A stretch of 64,000 nucleotides of DNA from Umezawaea tangerina (GTDB lineage Bacteria > Actinomycetota > Actinomycetes > Mycobacteriales > Pseudonocardiaceae), in NCBI RefSeq assembly GCF_003002815.1, contig NZ_PVTF01000006.1:496001-560000 (forward strand), read 5' to 3'. Under the pieces are notes generated by a model. The model ran no database searches, was not told the origin of the DNA, and worked only from the letters and a program-made list of their open reading frames with translations. Both the position numbers and the translations under genes were made by a program. Below, one piece after another: positions 57,311 to 64,000 of this stretch. Every line of letters begins with the position of its first letter. The first letter of the stretch is position 1.

Positions 57311-58846
57311 TCACCCCGCGATGTCGCGCGGTCGCGCGTCCTCCACCGTGGGAGCCTGTGGCACCGCCTCGGAGCGCGGCTCGGCGGACGCGAGCCGCGC
57401 GACCAGGGCGGGCGTGACACCCCGGTAGGCCGCCGGGTCGATCGGGTTCAGCCAGTGCGAGGCGCGGACGCGGGCCTTGATGTCCAGGTCCAGGTCGCCG
57501 AGCACCTCGTCGACGTTGTGCATGGAGAACGGGATGATCTTCGTGCCCCGGCAGTGGTGCCGGTCGGTGGCGTCGTCCATGAACTCCAGCTGCTCCACCA
57601 CCGCCCGCCGCATCGCCGCGTCGTCCGGCAGCTCCACGATCCCGGCGACGTCGGCGGCGATCCACACCGCGGCCATCTCCGCGTTCAACGGGCTGAAGAA
57701 CGACGAGTTGTAGCCGTTGAAGTACAGCCCCGGCACGCCGATCGGCCGGATCTGCCGGTACAGCAGGAAGTTCCCGCGCTCGTCGAACAGCCGCTCCTGC
57801 ACGTCGGGGTCCAGGAACGGCACGCCCTGGGTGAACCCGGTCGCGCACACCACCAGCTCGGCGGGCAGGACGGTGCCGTCGGCCAGCTCGGCCCACGGCT
57901 TCCCCTCCTTCTCCAGCAGCCGGGTGATGACCTGGTCGCGGCGGACCGCGATGGCCCCGTCCTCGACGCCCTCGAAGAACCCCTCGGTCGCGAGGCCGAT
58001 GGCCCCGCGGACGATGTCCTCCATGTGCCCCTTGGGAACCAGCCCGAGCTTCGCGAGCCCGAACTGCCGCACCGACACCGAGCCGACCGAGTTGAGCATG
58101 CTCCGCCGCACCCCGTTGCCCGGCCCGTGCAGGAACTTCTCGAACCCGCGCAGCCGGATGTAGCGGAACAGCGCCTCGCCCATCCGGGTCAGCAGCAGCA
58201 TCTTGAAGTTCAGCACGCCCGCGATCCTGCGAGGCACCTTCCACAGCAGCTGCCGGGCGATCACGTCGGTGCTCGCGGCGACCTTGCTGATCGGCACGGC
58301 CACGTCGCAGGCCGACTTGCCGTAGCCGACGACGAGCACGTGCTTGCCGCGCGCCTCCTCGGCGTCGTGGAACTCCGTGCCCGCCAACAGCTCCCCGCCC
58401 GCGGCGGTGAACTCCTCGACGCCGGGGTAGGCCGGGACCAGCGGCTCGCAGAACACGCCGTTCGCGACGACGAGCCGGTCGAACACCTCGGCGCCGTCAC
58501 GGGTCAGCACGGTCCACCGGCCGTCGGAGGTGCGCGCCGCCGAGGTCACCTCGGTGCCGAGCCGCAGCACCTCGTCCACCCCGAACTCCGCGGCGTAGGC
58601 GGCGAAGTAGGCCTGGATCTGCGCGCCGGTAGGCCACTCGGGGTAGTCCTTGGGCATCGGGAAGTCCGACAACGAGTACTGCGCCTTGGAGCTCTGCGTC
58701 GTCACGCCGGGGTAGCGCCGGGTCTCGCTCCACACCCCGCCGACGTCGGGGGTCCTGTCGTAGACGAGCACGTCGTGACCGGCTTGCAGCAGCACCTTGG
58801 CGGTGGTGAGGCCGGCGACCCCGGCACCGATGATGGCGATCCTCAT
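57311..58846 (-). CDS. flavin-containing monooxygenase (FMO / Baeyer-Villiger-like)
   Basis: The 511-residue protein has an FAD motif IAIIGAGVAGLTTAKVLLQA at the N-terminus, GVTTQSSKAQYSLSDFPMP near 47 and a second (NADPH) motif VLVVGYGKSACDVAVP near 170. CATGFTQGVPFLDP near 335 is the ATG-type motif of class B flavoprotein monooxygenases. The usual FxGxxxH stretch appears as GTEFHDAEEARGKH. It would hydroxylate or insert oxygen into a ketone. The start ATG 58846 overlaps the upstream cupin gene as ATGA. It is probably controlled with the catabolic operon to the right. Confidence 0.88.
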   Translation of the reverse strand: MRIAIIGAGVAGLTTAKVLLQAGHDVLVYDRTPDVGGVWSETRRYPGVTTQSSKAQYSLSDFPMPKDYPEWPTGAQIQAYFAAYAAEFGVDEVLRLGTEVTSAARTSDGRWTVLTRDGAEVFDRLVVANGVFCEPLVPAYPGVEEFTAAGGELLAGTEFHDAEEARGKHVLVVGYGKSACDVAVPISKVAASTDVIARQLLWKVPRRIAGVLNFKMLLLTRMGEALFRYIRLRGFEKFLHGPGNGVRRSMLNSVGSVSVRQFGLAKLGLVPKGHMEDIVRGAIGLATEGFFEGVEDGAIAVRRDQVITRLLEKEGKPWAELADGTVLPAELVVCATGFTQGVPFLDPDVQERLFDERGNFLLYRQIRPIGVPGLYFNGYNSSFFSPLNAEMAAVWIAADVAGIVELPDDAAMRRAVVEQLEFMDDATDRHHCRGTKIIPFSMHNVDEVLGDLDLDIKARVRASHWLNPIDPAAYRGVTPALVARLASAEPRSEAVPQAPTVEDARPRDIAG

Positions 58847-59313
58847 GGCTGCTGGACCTCCGCGGGGAGCCGCAGCTCGATGCCGAAGTCCGCCATGATC
58901 CCCTTCATCGCGGAGATGTCCTTCGGACCGGGGGGCATGTCCGCCAGGGCCTGGTAGTACCGCTCCAGCCCGGCGGGCGAGACGACGGAGATGACCCGCG
59001 ACTCCTCGCGGTAGGGGTTCTTGAACGCGTGCACGACGTCGCGGGGCAGGAACAGGTAGTCGCCCTGCTCCAGGACGAAGTCCTCGCCGCCGAGGTGGAC
59101 CTCGAGGCGTCCGGTGAGGCAGATGAACGACTCGTCCTCGCGGGTGTGGACGTGCGGGGGCGGGCCGTTGGTCTCCGGCGGGATCGTGTACTCGAAGAGC
59201 GAGTAGGCGTCGTGGGTGGACTTGCCGTCCGTCTTCATCGTGATGCCGAGCCCGATCGCCGCGATCGCGTGGCCGTCGCGGGAGGGGAGCAGGTAGCCAC
59301 CGCCCAGGGTCAC
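58843..59313 (-). CDS. cupin-domain protein, quercetin dioxygenase-like
   Basis: The 156-residue protein has cupin motif 1 as PPPHVHTREDESFICLTGRL (about residues 51-70), with the metal-binding HxH and Glu, and motif 2 as GDYLFLPRDVVHAF near 84. The start GTG 59313 follows AAGGAG. It is coupled to the monooxygenase gene behind it. The palindrome at 59387-59405 lies 74 bp upstream of its start, in promoter range. It may be a small dioxygenase or isomerase of the same pathway. Confidence 0.85.
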   Translation of the reverse strand: MTLGGGYLLPSRDGHAIAAIGLGITMKTDGKSTHDAYSLFEYTIPPETNGPPPHVHTREDESFICLTGRLEVHLGGEDFVLEQGDYLFLPRDVVHAFKNPYREESRVISVVSPAGLERYYQALADMPPGPKDISAMKGIMADFGIELRLPAEVQQP

Positions 59314-59386
59314 CGGGGTCTCCTTCGGTCGTCGGGTGTGTCAGCGCTCACAGCGTGGGGTGGGGTGCCGACATCCGCCAAACCGG

Positions 59387-59405
59387 AGTCCCGCTCAGCG
59401 GGACT
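59387..59405. promoter_or_regulatory. palindrome, probable IclR-regulator operator 1
   Basis: AGTCCCGCT-C-AGCGGGACT is a perfect 9+1+9 palindrome upstream of the cupin-monooxygenase operon and just behind the IclR gene end. Its 17-bp core recurs at 60169-60185 with only the central base changed. Confidence 0.7.
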
Positions 59406-59421
59406 CTTTCTCCCGCGGTGG

Positions 59422-60189
59422 TCACCTCCTGGTGGCGTACGCCCTCGACGCGGCGGCCGCGGCGAGCCGCACCGCGGGTCCGATCCGGTCCGGTTTCACC
59501 AGGGTGGTCGGGCCGGTGACCGACAGGGCCGCGACCACGTCGCCGAGCGGGCCGAAGATGGCCGCTGCCACGCAGTTCACCCCGATGTTGCCCTCCTCTC
59601 GGTCGACCGCCCAGCCCCGGTGCGGGATGGCCGCGAGCTCGCGCAGGATCGCCACGGGCGTGGTGAGCGTGCGCGAGGTCCGCGGCGTGAGGCCCGCCGC
59701 CAGCACCGACTCGACGGTCGCGACGTCGGAGTAGGCGAGGATCGCCCGCCCCAGTCCCGAACAGTGGGCCGGTATCGTCCCGCCGACCTGGGACAGCATC
59801 GGCATCGGCTGGTGACCGGTGATCTTCTCCACCACCAGCACCTGCGCGCCCTTGAGGACGCCGAGCTGCACGGTGGTCCTCGTCGCGTTGTACAGGTCCT
59901 GGAGGAACGGCAGCACGGCCTCGCGCAGCTCGTGCCGGATCGGCGCCAGGCCGGAGAGCTCGAACAACCGGTTCCCGATGCGGTAGCGGTCCTTCGGCTT
60001 GTCCAGCCAGCCGAGCTTGATCATGCGGTCGGCGGTGCGGTGCGTCGTCGACCTGGGCATGCCGCACCGGGCCACGAGCGCGGCCAGGGTCAGCTCCCGG
60101 TGCGTGGCGTCGAACGCGCCCAGGATCGCGGCCGCCCGGTCGAGACCGCCCACTGCTTCCGAAGTGCCGTCCCGCTGAGCGGGACTCAT
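59422..60189 (-). CDS. IclR-family transcriptional regulator
   Basis: The regulator has an N-terminal winged helix (GGLDRAAAILGAFDATHREL, then GMPRSTTHRTADRMIKLGWL) and a C-terminal effector domain (VVEKITGHQPMPMLSQVGGT, HCSGLGRAILAY, REEGNIGVNCVAAAIFGPLG). Three starts are possible: GTG 60201, ATG 60189 and GTG 60153. With ATG 60189 (255 residues) the palindrome at 60169-60185 falls inside the first codons. With GTG 60153 (243 residues) it would precede the start. IclR proteins commonly bind aromatic acids and control the operons beside them. Confidence 0.88.
   Translation of the reverse strand: MSPAQRDGTSEAVGGLDRAAAILGAFDATHRELTLAALVARCGMPRSTTHRTADRMIKLGWLDKPKDRYRIGNRLFELSGLAPIRHELREAVLPFLQDLYNATRTTVQLGVLKGAQVLVVEKITGHQPMPMLSQVGGTIPAHCSGLGRAILAYSDVATVESVLAAGLTPRTSRTLTTPVAILRELAAIPHRGWAVDREEGNIGVNCVAAAIFGPLGDVVAALSVTGPTTLVKPDRIGPAVRLAAAAASRAYATRR
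60169..60185. promoter_or_regulatory. palindrome, probable IclR-regulator operator 2
   Basis: GTCCCGCT-G-AGCGGGAC is a perfect 8+1+8 palindrome at the start of the IclR gene, 81 bp before the SDR coding start of the divergent catabolic operon. It is the same sequence as the core at 59388-59404 apart from the central base. Confidence 0.7.
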
Positions 60190-60266
60190 CGTTGGCTCCA
60201 CGAGTTCACACGGGCCAGGCTAACCCCGTAGCGACCGGCGACACACCGAGCTCCAGGAGGCCCGTC

Positions 60267-61043
60267 ATCACCACTCGGACCGCACTCGTGGGTGGCGGCG
60301 CCACCGGCATCGGGCACGCGACCGCCGAACACCTGGCGCGCGCCGGCCACCAGGTCGTGATCACCGGACGGCGCGTCGACGCGCTCGACGCCGCGGTGCT
60401 GCGGCTGAAGGCGAGCACCGGCGCGGACGTGCACGGACTGGTCAACGACGTGGCGGACCCGGCGGCCGCGCAGGCGGCCGTGGACGAGGTGGAGAGCCGG
60501 TTCGGCTCCTTGGACGTCCTCGTGCTCAACGCGGGCGGCCCGCCTCCCGGCCGGATCCTGGACGTCGGCGACGAGCAGTGGCGGGCGGCGTTCGACCTCC
60601 TGCTGCTCGGGCCGCTGCGGCTGGCCCGGCTCGCGCTGCCGAGGATGGCGACCGCGGGCTTCGGCCGGGTGGTGTTCGTGACGTCGACCGCGGTGCGGCA
60701 GCCGCAGCCCGACCTCGCGGCATCGGTCGTGCTGAGGTCCGCGGTCACCGCCGCCGCGAAGCTGCTCTCGCGGGAGTACGCGGACATGGGCGTCACGGTG
60801 AACTGCGTCGCGCCCGGCGCCACGGCGACCGACCGGCGCAGACAGGTCCTGGCCAACCGCGCCGAGGCCGCGGGCCGCGACTACGCCGAGATCGAGGCGC
60901 ACGACGCCGAGAGCATCCCCGCGGGGCGCGCCGGGCAGCCGGGGGAGATCGGGGCGGCGGTGGCCTTCCTGGCCTCCGAGGCCGCGAGCTACGTGAACGG
61001 GACCGTGCTGGCGGTCGACGGTGGACGAACGGAGACGATCTGA
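60267..61043 (+). CDS. atypical short-chain dehydrogenase/reductase, apparent ATC start
   Basis: The 258-residue protein has the SDR cofactor loop ALVGGGATGIGHATAEHLAR and NAGG. The catalytic Tyr-x3-Lys is absent: where it should stand the sequence is LAASVVLRSAVTAAAKLLSR, the Ser-x-x-x-Arg form of a divergent SDR group. The ribosome site AGGAGG (60255-60260) is 6 nt before ATC 60267, which is followed by ACC ACT CGG. The usual family N-terminus MTTRTALV suggests ATC replaces ATG. A TTG at 60192 would add 25 implausible residues. It is the first gene of the catabolic operon. Confidence 0.8.
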   Translation: MTTRTALVGGGATGIGHATAEHLARAGHQVVITGRRVDALDAAVLRLKASTGADVHGLVNDVADPAAAQAAVDEVESRFGSLDVLVLNAGGPPPGRILDVGDEQWRAAFDLLLLGPLRLARLALPRMATAGFGRVVFVTSTAVRQPQPDLAASVVLRSAVTAAAKLLSREYADMGVTVNCVAPGATATDRRRQVLANRAEAAGRDYAEIEAHDAESIPAGRAGQPGEIGAAVAFLASEAASYVNGTVLAVDGGRTETI

Positions 61044-61546
61044 TGGCCGAGTCCGGACCCGACTTCAGCATGGCCGACTTCCTCGGCTCGATAGCCGACG
61101 TCGTCCGCCCCAGCACCCTGCGGCCGGTCGTCGTGCGGGCGGCGGAGCTGGAGACCCTGCCCGCCGCGCAGGTGCACAACCCCACGACGCTGTCCATCGC
61201 CGGGAAGCTGCCGACCGCGACGTTCGAGATCTTCCGGCAGACCATCCCGCCGGGCCTCACCTCGGACATGCAGCGCCACCACCACGAGACCGTGCACTAC
61301 GTCATCTCCGGCGACGGCCACAGCGAGGTCGAGGACGAGACCGGGACCTGGTCGACCGGCGACTTCGTCTACACGCCGCCGTGGACGTGGCACCGGCACT
61401 ACAACGACTCCACCGAGCACCCGGTCGAGTTCCTGACCATCGAGAACTCCCGGCTGCTCAACGCACTCGGCGTCGGACGGCGGCAGAGCGCCGGTCTGGC
61501 GACCCTCGCGGAGGCCCGCGCCCGCTTCAAGGAGGAGACCTCGTGA
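61043..61546 (+). CDS. cupin-domain protein, gentisate-dioxygenase-like
   Basis: The 167-residue protein has cupin motif 1 as DMQRHHHETVHYVISGDGHS near residue 76 and motif 2 as GDFVYTPPWTWHRHYND near 106. HHHET and the later His give a metal site. ATG 61043 shares one base with the SDR stop (TGATG). Its length is about half that of gentisate dioxygenases, so it is a single cupin, perhaps an isomerase or accessory enzyme. Expressed with meta-cleavage genes. Confidence 0.83.
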   Translation: MAESGPDFSMADFLGSIADVVRPSTLRPVVVRAAELETLPAAQVHNPTTLSIAGKLPTATFEIFRQTIPPGLTSDMQRHHHETVHYVISGDGHSEVEDETGTWSTGDFVYTPPWTWHRHYNDSTEHPVEFLTIENSRLLNALGVGRRQSAGLATLAEARARFKEETS

Positions 61547-62421
61547 GCGACCTGCCCGAGCACATCAGCATCTGGGGCGAGCTGGCGGACGTGGACCACC
61601 AGCTGCGCCACGTGCACGTCGACGGGGTCCGCACCCGCGTGCTGCAGGCCGGGTCCGGACCGGACCTGGTCCTGCTGCACGGGACCGGCGGCCACCTGGA
61701 GGCCTACGCCCGCGACATCGCGGGGCTGGCGGCGGACTTCCGGGTCACCGCCTACGACATGGTCGGCCACGGCTGGTCGGACCTGCCGGACAAGCCGTAC
61801 ACGATCGACGTGCTCTCGGCCCACCTGATCGGGCTGATGGACGCGCTCGGCATCGGCTCCGCGCACCTGTCCGGCGAGTCGCTCGGCGGCTGGGTGGTCG
61901 CCTGGACCGCCGCGCACCACCCGGAACGCGTCGACAGGCTGGTGCTGAACACGCCCGGCAACATCGCCAACAAGCCCGAGGTGATGGCCAGGATGCGCGA
62001 CAGCACGATGGCCGCCGTGCGAGACCCCAGCGACGAGACCGTGCGCCGCCGCGTCGAGTTCCTGTTCCACCACAAGGAGATGGTGACCGACGAGCTGGTG
62101 GGCCTGCGCCGGTCCGTCTACAGCCGACCGGGCTTCGTCCAGGCGATCACCAACACCCTCGTGCTCCAGGACCCGTTGGTGCGCAAGGACTTCGCCTGGG
62201 ACCCGAGCTGGGTCGGCAAGGTGGCGGCGCCGACGTTGCTGCTGTGGACCGAACACGACCCCACCGGTGGTCTCGACGAGGCCGCGATGCTGCTGGAGTG
62301 GCTGCCCGACGCCCGCCTGCACGTGATCGCGGACGCGGGGCACTGGCCGCAGTGGGAGAAGCCCGACGAGTACCTGCGGACCCACCACGACTTCCTCGTC
62401 CTCGGCAAGGACCCGGTATGA
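61543..62421 (+). CDS. alpha/beta hydrolase, meta-cleavage product hydrolase-like (MhpC/BphD type)
   Basis: The 292-residue hydrolase has the oxyanion HGTGGH near residue 47, the nucleophile elbow SGESLGGW near 108, the acid in LLLWTEHDPTGG near 230 and the His in IADAGHWPQWEKP near 262. With an extradiol dioxygenase and a hydratase next to it, it should cleave the C-C bond of the ring-fission product. The start GTG 61543 overlaps the cupin stop as GTGA, with AGGAGG upstream. Exact product unknown. Confidence 0.9.
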   Translation: MSDLPEHISIWGELADVDHQLRHVHVDGVRTRVLQAGSGPDLVLLHGTGGHLEAYARDIAGLAADFRVTAYDMVGHGWSDLPDKPYTIDVLSAHLIGLMDALGIGSAHLSGESLGGWVVAWTAAHHPERVDRLVLNTPGNIANKPEVMARMRDSTMAAVRDPSDETVRRRVEFLFHHKEMVTDELVGLRRSVYSRPGFVQAITNTLVLQDPLVRKDFAWDPSWVGKVAAPTLLLWTEHDPTGGLDEAAMLLEWLPDARLHVIADAGHWPQWEKPDEYLRTHHDFLVLGKDPV

Positions 62422-63347
62422 GCGAGATCATCGGCTTCGTGGGCATGTCCCACTCGCCCTTCGCGACCATGACACCGCCCGCGGACCCGGCGCAGCCCGG
62501 CGGCGCGTTCATGGCCGACGCCGACCGCGTCGCCGAGGCCGTGGCCCGGTTGGCGCCCGACGCCGTCGTCGTGGTGGGGCCCGACCACTTCCACGCCAAC
62601 TTCTACGACGTGATGCCGCCGTTCGTCCTCGGTGTCGAGGAGGCCATCGGCTTCGGCGACTTCGACAGCCGGTCGGGACCGCTGCCGGTCGCCTCGCAGC
62701 TGGCGTGGTCGATCCGCGACGGGCTCGCGGCCGACGGGTTCGACCTGTCGCTGTCCTACTCGCTCACCGTCGACCACGGCGTCGTGCAGAGCTACGAGAT
62801 GGTGACCGGCGGGTCCCCGATCCCGCTGGTGCCACTGGTCGTCAACACCGCCGCGCCGCCGCTGCCGTCGATGGACCGCTGCGTCGCGCTCGGCCGGGCG
62901 CTGGGCGCGGCGATCCGCGGGTCGGAGTTCGCCGGACGGGTGCTCGTGGTCGCCAGCGGCGGGCTGTCGCACTGGCTGCCGTCCAACGACCCCCGCGAGG
63001 TGGACGGGGACAGGCGCGAGTCGGTGATCCACGGGCGCAAGGACGTCCGGGCGGTCGCCGCCGTGCGCGAGCCGAGGGTGCGGGCCATGGGCGGCAACCC
63101 CGACGCGCGCGTGAACGCGGACTGGGACGACTGGTTCCTCAAGCAGCTGGTCGCCGACGACGCGGCGCCGGTCACGGCGCTGGGCGACGCGGCGCTGGAG
63201 GACAACGCGGGCAGCGGCGGGCACGAGATCCGCTCCTGGCTGATCGGGCAGGCGGCCGTGGGGCTGCCGCTGGTGTGGACGAGCTACGAGCCCGTTCCCG
63301 AGTGGATCACCGGGATGGGCATCGGCGCGACTTTCGAGGTGACATGA
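62418..63347 (+). CDS. class III extradiol ring-cleavage dioxygenase (MhpB/LigB type)
   Basis: The 309-residue enzyme has the LigB-type layout: GMSHSPF near residue 9, VVVGPDHFHANFYDVMPPF near 51 with iron-binding and catalytic His residues, SLTVDHGVVQ near 115 and VVASGGLSHWLP near 176. It resembles 2,3-dihydroxyphenylpropionate 1,2-dioxygenase, using Fe(II) and O2 to open a catechol ring meta to the hydroxyls. The start ATG 62418 overlaps the hydrolase stop as ATGA. The catechol it accepts is unknown. Confidence 0.9.
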   Translation: MSEIIGFVGMSHSPFATMTPPADPAQPGGAFMADADRVAEAVARLAPDAVVVVGPDHFHANFYDVMPPFVLGVEEAIGFGDFDSRSGPLPVASQLAWSIRDGLAADGFDLSLSYSLTVDHGVVQSYEMVTGGSPIPLVPLVVNTAAPPLPSMDRCVALGRALGAAIRGSEFAGRVLVVASGGLSHWLPSNDPREVDGDRRESVIHGRKDVRAVAAVREPRVRAMGGNPDARVNADWDDWFLKQLVADDAAPVTALGDAALEDNAGSGGHEIRSWLIGQAAVGLPLVWTSYEPVPEWITGMGIGATFEVT

Positions 63348-64000
63348 CGACCGACGTGTCCGGGACCCGCGTGGCTTCCCTGCGACTGGCTTCCGCCCGC
63401 GCCGAACGACGGCCGTGCGCCCCGGTGCGCGACCTGCTGCCCGAGGGCGACATCGCCGCCGCCTACGCCGTGCAGTCGGTGTGGGTGCGGGAGCGGGTCG
63501 CGGCGGGCGCGACCGCGGTGGGCCGCAAGATCGGGCTCACGAACCCGGCCGTGCAGCGGCAGCTCGGCGTCGACCGGCCGGACTTCGGCGTGCTGCTCGA
63601 CGACATGGCCTGCTCCGCGTACGCGCCGATCGACATCGGCAGGCTGCTGCAGCCCAAGATCGAGGCCGAGATCGCGTTCGTGCTCGCGCACGACCTCGCG
63701 GGCGACGGGGCGATCGGCCCGGCCGAGGTCGCCGCCGCGACCGGGCACGTGGTGGCCGCGCTGGAGATCGTGGACAGCCGGATCGCCGACTGGGACATCC
63801 GCATCGTCGACACCGTGGCGGACAACGCGTCGTCGGGGCTGTTCGTGCTGGGCGACAAGCCGGTGCCGCTGGACGGCCTCGACCTGCCCTCGTGCGCGAT
63901 GAGCCTGTGGCGCGACCACGAGGTCGTGTCGCAGGGCCACGGCTCGGACTGCCTTGGCGACCCGCTCACGGCCGTCGCCTGGCTGGCCACGACCTCCCGC
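63344..64000 (+). CDS. 2-keto-4-pentenoate hydratase family protein, truncated by the window end
   Basis: The first 219 codons match the 2-oxopent-4-enoate hydratase/fumarylacetoacetase-like family (MhpD/BphH). VGRKIGLTNPAVQRQLGVDR near residue 58, KIEAEIAFVLAHDL near 104 with the metal-binding Glu residues, and ALEIVDSRI near 140 are visible. It would hydrate the 2-oxopentenoate released by the hydrolase. The start ATG 63344 overlaps the dioxygenase stop as ATGA. An aldolase and dehydrogenase would be expected beyond the window. Confidence 0.9.
   Translation, partial: MTTDVSGTRVASLRLASARAERRPCAPVRDLLPEGDIAAAYAVQSVWVRERVAAGATAVGRKIGLTNPAVQRQLGVDRPDFGVLLDDMACSAYAPIDIGRLLQPKIEAEIAFVLAHDLAGDGAIGPAEVAAATGHVVAALEIVDSRIADWDIRIVDTVADNASSGLFVLGDKPVPLDGLDLPSCAMSLWRDHEVVSQGHGSDCLGDPLTAVAWLATTSR

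Follow-up and report, generated by a model that had tools for sequence, protein, structure and literature searches.

The mhp pathway for 3-(3-hydroxyphenyl)propionate, which comprises MhpABCDFE and the regulator MhpR, is a natural point of reference for the gene cluster described here. MhpR is an IclR-family regulator (PMC8222616). A second point of reference comes from translation: according to the available text of PMC5472188, experimental characterization exists for very few non-canonical start codons; Streptomyces sigR starts with GTC and is repressed by the initiation factor IF3, Streptomyces infC starts with ATC, and E. coli infC starts with ATT, infC likewise being repressed by IF3. We analyzed a 64,000-nucleotide stretch of Umezawaea tangerina (GCF_003002815.1, contig NZ_PVTF01000006.1, positions 496,001 to 560,000; henceforth the window), whose last part, from position 57,311 onward, holds two operons on opposite strands that encode a flavin-containing monooxygenase (FMO), two cupins, an IclR-family regulator, an atypical short-chain dehydrogenase/reductase (SDR), a hydrolase and a LigB-type extradiol dioxygenase. 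This is a real and conserved regulon that appears to serve an uncharacterized aromatic meta-cleavage. We consider it likely that, taken as a whole, it is a conserved actinobacterial catabolic regulon in which a 3-substituted catechol undergoes meta-cleavage, the IclR protein acts as a repressor and the SDR is translated from an AUC start codon. That start codon is the most surprising point and lies outside the finding of an initial annotation of this DNA. The annotation had called the locus an uncharacterized meta-cleavage cluster: the genes and families are present as it described, and the gene families together with the conservation of the gene set support the designation.

Conservation of the two-way gene module

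The two-way cluster is common to many soil actinobacteria. In a sample of 397 genomes from the same order, six, among them that of the host, encode a LigB match with an E value of 1e-60 or lower, and four of the five others hold a module of seven core genes, namely those for the FMO, cupin A, IclR, SDR, cupin B, hydrolase and LigB; in the fifth, where the match is on a 5.4-kb contig, only LigB (44%) and the SDR (31%) have a counterpart. We further scanned a species-genome collection with two LigB peptide patterns, which yielded 116 stretches, 58 of them encoding a relative, and all 58 of these loci (L numbers below) carry actinobacterial names. A family search for co-occurrence of the gene set, which the initial annotation had put forward as a check, recovered all seven core genes together in 50 of the 58 loci when presence was called at per-gene identity cut-offs of 45-70%. 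Taken singly, the FMO, cupin A and IclR were each found in 55 loci, the SDR in 52, cupin B in 56, the hydrolase in 57 and LigB in 58. Core genes are missing, for instance, in L052 (six genes), L061 (four), L059 (the FMO) and L076 (three, its contig piece beginning within the SDR). Genes for a hydratase, a dehydrogenase and an aldolase all adjoin the module in 22 of the 58 loci, and any of the three does so in 27. A SnoaL-like gene, located after cupA in Kibdelosporangium, has a homologue in 15 loci.

The dioxygenase, hydrolase and hydratase genes were initially reported to be coupled by 4-nt overlaps. Such ATGA or GTGA overlaps are indeed found at five of the six junctions of the plus-strand operon, and a 4-nt overlap joins cupA to the FMO gene, whereas the SDR and cupB genes share a 1-nt TGATG overlap. 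A scan of the locus for sigma-70-type promoters and intrinsic terminators found none.

The IclR regulator and its proposed operators

The regulator (59422..60201, minus strand) has both the HTH_IclR domain (PF09339) and the IclR_C effector domain (PF01614) above cut-off; its start candidates are GTG 60201, ATG 60189 or a codon further in. The matched palindromes noted initially before both operons are exact, and their position is kept across relatives. Operator 1 (59387..59405) is a perfect 19-bp palindrome, AGTCCCGCTCAGCGGGACT, about 74 nt before cupA. Operator 2 (60169..60185), with the 17-base core GTCCCGCTGAGCGGGAC, overlaps the 5' end of iclR and precedes the SDR operon; its full 19 bp begin immediately behind ATG 60189, 15 nt into iclR as drawn, and the SDR lies some 80 nt away. 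Across the host genome (10.68 Mb, 34 contigs) the exact core pattern has just two copies, both at this locus.

Matched operators on both operons, as first claimed for this regulator, recur among its relatives. Allowing up to 5 of 18 mismatches in the 55 of the 58 loci with an IclR gene, we found the operator at the iclR 5' end in 51, as against 47 of 2,320 random 120-nt windows of the same loci (2%), and before cupA or the FMO gene in 47, as against 138 of 2,320 (6%), the latter count taking the better of two 170-nt stretches and its control the best of two random 170-nt windows. The element GTCCC...GGGAC is near-invariant across the 98 sites. In layout the palindrome is like the group 1 IclR motifs given in the available text of PMC8222616, from which it departs at three positions. 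On the strength of this conservation the IclR protein is predicted to bind both palindromes and to repress. Operator 2 falls inside the first iclR codons (MSPAQRD); since its offset at the iclR 5' end is identical in 49 of the 51 relatives with a site, it may belong to the iclR coding sequence.

In seven of the 58 loci (five from Lentzea, one each from Kibdelosporangium and Rhodococcus rhodnii) a further operator copy with 3-5 mismatches stands 72-73 or 101-103 nt upstream of genes for an ABM protein and a class A flavin ring hydroxylase. This arrangement suggests that the ring hydroxylase is probably a member of the regulon in those species. Hence, the initial remark that the usual ring hydroxylase is absent is true of this locus but not of these seven relatives; in the host genome, searched for an orthologue of the class A hydroxylase, the best match is just 44%. 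One example of such an additional operon is L019:1324-3569, where the class A ring hydroxylase has a hydrophobic N-terminus. In two Lentzea loci (L027:12662 and L032:12661), the hydratase-dehydrogenase-aldolase genes adjoin a second IclR gene together with a palindrome of another sequence, AGTTCCG-N5-CGGAACT. We also sought a third operon of the regulon in the host genome. At up to two mismatches the operator pattern occurs at 16 places, as against 7 in the reversed control, and therefore only the two exact sites are convincing; the one site with a single mismatch, at C11:325285, has no obvious aromatic gene adjoining it.

Predicted ring cleavage and lower pathway

The LigB-type (class III) extradiol dioxygenase (62418..63347, plus strand) has MhpB as its nearest relative among solved proteins (8k04; E 1.8e-45), and its best-scoring models are those of 3-carboxyethylcatechol dioxygenase. 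Its conserved TVDHG and GLSHW motifs align with VDHG and GLSH of MhpB, and presumably supply the catalytic His residues of LigB. The preceding gene (61543..62421, plus strand) encodes an alpha/beta C-C bond hydrolase of the meta-cleavage product hydrolase type with conserved GESLGG, HDPTGG and AGHWPQWE motifs, to which a Ser-Asp-His triad can be assigned by pattern; it resembles the cumene, HsaD and BphD hydrolases with scores below cut-offs. A 2-oxopent-4-enoate hydratase (63344..64147, plus strand) scores just under its cut-off (308 vs 350 bits). The window end at 64000 cuts this gene. In the host genome the operon continues on the same strand beyond the window, where the hydratase gene ends and those for an acylating acetaldehyde dehydrogenase (64144-65052; 453 bits vs a cut-off of 282) and a 4-hydroxy-2-oxovalerate aldolase (65049-66056; 537 vs 286) follow. 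Meta-cleavage of a 3-substituted catechol is the chemistry that best fits these families. Elsewhere in the host genome, contig C2:105000-124999 holds a second meta-cleavage gene set with hydratase, dehydrogenase and aldolase homologues that are 58-82% identical, a 32% identical hydrolase and further meta-type genes that read as BphC-like.

The affinity of LigB to MhpB and to the 3-carboxyethylcatechol dioxygenase models could point to a 3-(2-hydroxyphenyl)propionate or coumarin-type pathway, in which LigB and the hydrolase would act as MhpB and MhpC on 2,3-dihydroxyphenylpropionate or a close analogue. However, LigB lies below the curated cut-offs for 3-carboxyethylcatechol dioxygenase (191 vs 467, 190 vs 291, 173 vs 286 and 160 vs 549 bits), the hydrolase is nearest to cumene- and HsaD-type hydrolases, and an operator-linked class A hydroxylase is found in only the seven loci mentioned above. 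We therefore regard this more specific assignment as rather unlikely.

The cupins and the flavin-containing monooxygenase

Cupin A (58843..59313, minus strand) is a single-domain Cupin_2 protein, distantly quercetinase-like, in whose family alignment HxHxxxxE and a later His are conserved. Cupin B (61043..61546, plus strand) is a monocupin related to gentisate/salicylate 1,2-dioxygenases by sequence and by predicted fold (mean pLDDT 87; TM ~0.5-0.6), its fold matches including gentisate, salicylate and 5-nitrosalicylate 1,2-dioxygenases. H79, H81, H85, H117 and H119 are invariant in 32 sequences, among them homologues from Rhodococcus, Thermomicrobium and Pseudarthrobacter. The FMO (57311..58846, minus strand; 511 aa) is assigned by its FMO-like Pfam match, family alignment and predicted fold, and has the nucleotide-binding motifs GAGVAG and GYGKSACD.

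The fold matches of cupin B admit a pathway for a bicyclic aromatic, flavonoid-like or indole-derived, in which cupin B would open one ring or side chain and LigB the other ring. FMO homologues outside the module, which we surveyed as a clue to the substrate, occur in mixed gene contexts. One (48% identical) adjoins catechol ortho genes on a Novosphingobium plasmid, in a gene order that we take to be indole-acetate (iac) like, and another (52%) lies near indolepyruvate oxidoreductase genes in Tsukamurella. A-ring meta-cleavage in the isoflavone (ifc) cluster of Variovorax likewise involves two cupins, an alpha/beta hydrolase, a FAD monooxygenase and a glyoxalase-type dioxygenase, those being of other families, in the available text of PMC11069340. 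Against this, the FMO homologues of these contexts are merely ~46-54% identical, two of three further contexts (L109 and L110) have no obvious aromatic genes among the open reading frames listed, and the TM values of cupin B to the gentisate and salicylate dioxygenases are just those given above. A bicyclic substrate is, in our view, unlikely.

Returning to the cleavage of a 3-substituted catechol, the initial annotation had suggested that the FMO might prepare the catechol as a Baeyer-Villiger monooxygenase (BVMO), which would convert an aryl ketone to an ester; it named hydroxyacetophenones and phenylpropanoids as candidate substrates. FMOs and BVMOs belong to one superfamily, and FMO5-type enzymes, which have the FMO fold, perform Baeyer-Villiger chemistry without the BVMO fingerprint. 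That fingerprint, FxGxxxHxxxW, is found in none of 58 FMO sequences (the window's own, four from the genome search and the rest from named loci), and neither is the classical FMO fingerprint. As some enzymes of the FMO fold do such chemistry, the missing fingerprint by itself leaves room for a Baeyer-Villiger role, and the fold matches include an ancestral FMO5 (TM 0.71). Yet the predicted fold (mean pLDDT 81) has ancestral mammalian FMOs and DiatB as its nearest PDB matches, ahead of BVMOs, with TM values of 0.69-0.72 for the ancestral FMOs vs 0.56-0.63 for the BVMOs listed. These results weaken the suggestion, and we deem a Baeyer-Villiger reaction by this protein quite improbable. A literature search by the name DiatB, the nearest solved FMO, found no paper.

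A probable unusual start codon in the SDR gene

The SDR (60267..61043, plus strand) is atypical, as noticed initially: where SDRs usually have the YxxxK motif, its family shows a conserved SxVLR, and the nearest solved relative, 2z1n, has SNIMR at this place. The gene lacks an obvious canonical start. Looking back up to 45 codons from the Rossmann motif, the only canonical in-frame starts in the window are a TTG at 60192, situated 5-6 nt from the operator and without a Shine-Dalgarno site, and a GTG directly before the motif. By contrast, an ATC at 60267-60269, the probable AUC start codon, stands 6 nt after the Shine-Dalgarno sequence AGGAGG (60255..60260, plus strand).

We surveyed this feature in the window and the 51 named loci in which the Rossmann motif was found (n=52), with the same look-back and ignoring the two codons directly before the motif. 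In 23 of the 52 genes there is no ATG, GTG or TTG within 20 codons of the motif, and in 11 there is no canonical start before an in-frame stop is reached. Of those 23 genes, 21 have an in-frame ATC (18) or ATT (3) positioned 4-6 nt after GGAG(G/A). The same test applied to other genes of the module, each counted only at loci where its own motif was found, detected no gene without a canonical start for LigB (0/59), the FMO (0/55), the hydrolase (0/57) and cupin B (0/57), and a single one for cupin A (1/50). Canonical codons occur at the position itself in some relatives: Acrocarpospora corrugata (L053) has an ATG where three congeners (L029, L049 and L050) show ATT after a similar Shine-Dalgarno site, and the place of the ATC is taken by ATG in L036 and by GTG in L048. 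Five Streptomyces loci have an ATC-ATG pair and hence a usable ATG. The codon preceding the ATC is frequently GTC and is not conserved. Taken together, these patterns strongly indicate that the SDR is translated from AUC, or AUU in some species, and that this start has been kept in many species. If AUC or AUU is kept in a catabolic gene across several actinobacterial genera, the use of such starts extends beyond infC and sigR; moreover, gene finders restricted to ATG, GTG and TTG would misplace the start of this SDR.

Proposed mechanism and points against it

At the level of sequence, the gene set, its conservation, the operators and the lack of canonical SDR starts in many species are established; the cleavage of a 3-substituted catechol ring, repression by IclR, initiation at AUC and a dependence of the SDR on IF3 are what we infer from them. 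In the proposed scheme, the FMO, cupin A, the SDR and cupin B would convert an aromatic compound into a 3-substituted catechol. As judged from families and gene order, LigB would then open the ring adjacent to the hydroxyls, the hydrolase would cleave the side chain off as a carboxylic acid to leave 2-hydroxypenta-2,4-dienoate, and the hydratase, aldolase and acylating dehydrogenase would turn the latter into pyruvate and acetyl-CoA. The IclR protein, sitting on the operator before cupA-FMO and on the one that spans the iclR 5' end and the SDR promoter, would keep both operons as well as its own gene repressed in the absence of an aromatic ligand. In the SDR, as the first gene of the catabolic operon, an AUC start behind a strong Shine-Dalgarno site might keep synthesis low and sensitive to IF3. 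More tentatively, it is possible that two gates control the regulon, IclR at the level of DNA and, at the first gene, a conserved AUC/AUU start disfavored by IF3. The atypical SDR, made at a low level, might then be a pseudo-enzyme with a regulatory or scaffolding function and not a bulk catalyst, and the ring-opening substrate might come from a pathway not yet described.

Several observations weigh against this scheme. The co-occurrence counts are conditional on a close LigB, as the loci were chosen by LigB. At the cut-offs used, the SDR is missing in six of the 58 loci (L052, L061, L069, L072, L074 and L077), and the module can therefore do without it; L052 and L061 are without most of the module, and none of the hydratase, dehydrogenase and aldolase genes is in the fetched flank of 31 of the 58 loci. 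Among the 55 loci with IclR, the operator is missing at the iclR 5' end in four and before cupA/FMO in eight. The SDR is without the usual catalytic Tyr and Lys, and the upper-pathway roles assigned to this protein, the FMO and both cupins are guesses. As for the start codon, L039 and L059 have no canonical start and yet no ATC or ATT behind a Shine-Dalgarno site, a canonical start is found within 20 codons in 29 of the 52 SDR genes, and in the window the frame is open from TTG 60192, so that a TTG start is formally possible. These last two facts would suit an ordinary start, at TTG 60192 in the window and at an upstream canonical codon in relatives, with the ATC arising by chance, which is very unlikely given the setting of that TTG and the 11 genes in which, going back from the motif, an in-frame stop is reached before any canonical start. 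The regulon marks an uncharacterized aromatic pathway whose regulator, operators and gene set are defined and which is directly testable in culturable strains.

Comparison with known systems

In the literature searched for the gene set or its substrate, few subscription papers being among it, the available text (including that of PMC6710988, PMC13101518 and PMC11069340) holds no description of this cluster. Partial counterparts are found on plasmids of Rhodococcus opacus B4 and Thermomicrobium roseum, which have ABH-HpaB-SDR-cupin-VOC clusters (L081:13995-18488 and L082:9989-14622); the literature searched for clusters of this composition likewise yielded no description. They share with our locus, as genes standing together, the hydrolase (62% identical), cupin B (50-51%) and the SDR (37-39%), and differ in having an HpaB-type hydroxylase and a VOC protein, catechol-2,3-dioxygenase-like in Rhodococcus, in place of the FMO and a close LigB; neither has a cupin A match at E 1e-8, and the Rhodococcus cluster has an annotated GntR regulator. 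The shared genes therefore suggest an SDR-cupin B-hydrolase core that may be paired with varying hydroxylases and ring-cleavage enzymes.

Like the mhp pathway, the locus combines a LigB-type dioxygenase, a C-C hydrolase, a hydratase, an acylating dehydrogenase and an aldolase with an IclR-family regulator. Unlike mhp, it is without an MhpA-type hydroxylase and has an FMO, two cupins and an atypical SDR, while its LigB is under the MhpB-type cut-offs. With the Variovorax ifc cluster, as far as it is presented in the available text of PMC11069340, it has in common meta-cleavage and genes for a flavin monooxygenase, an alpha/beta hydrolase and two cupins; however, ifc has a group A monooxygenase and a glyoxalase-type dioxygenase, and the likeness described here is one of gene content. 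In translation, the closest parallels are sigR and infC. A narrow literature search on such start codons, judged by title, found no item that concerns an SDR or a catabolic gene. As in sigR and infC, the SDR has a probable rare start codon that stands behind a strong Shine-Dalgarno site and is kept among species; unlike these, it is an enzyme gene heading a regulated catabolic operon in many actinobacterial genera.

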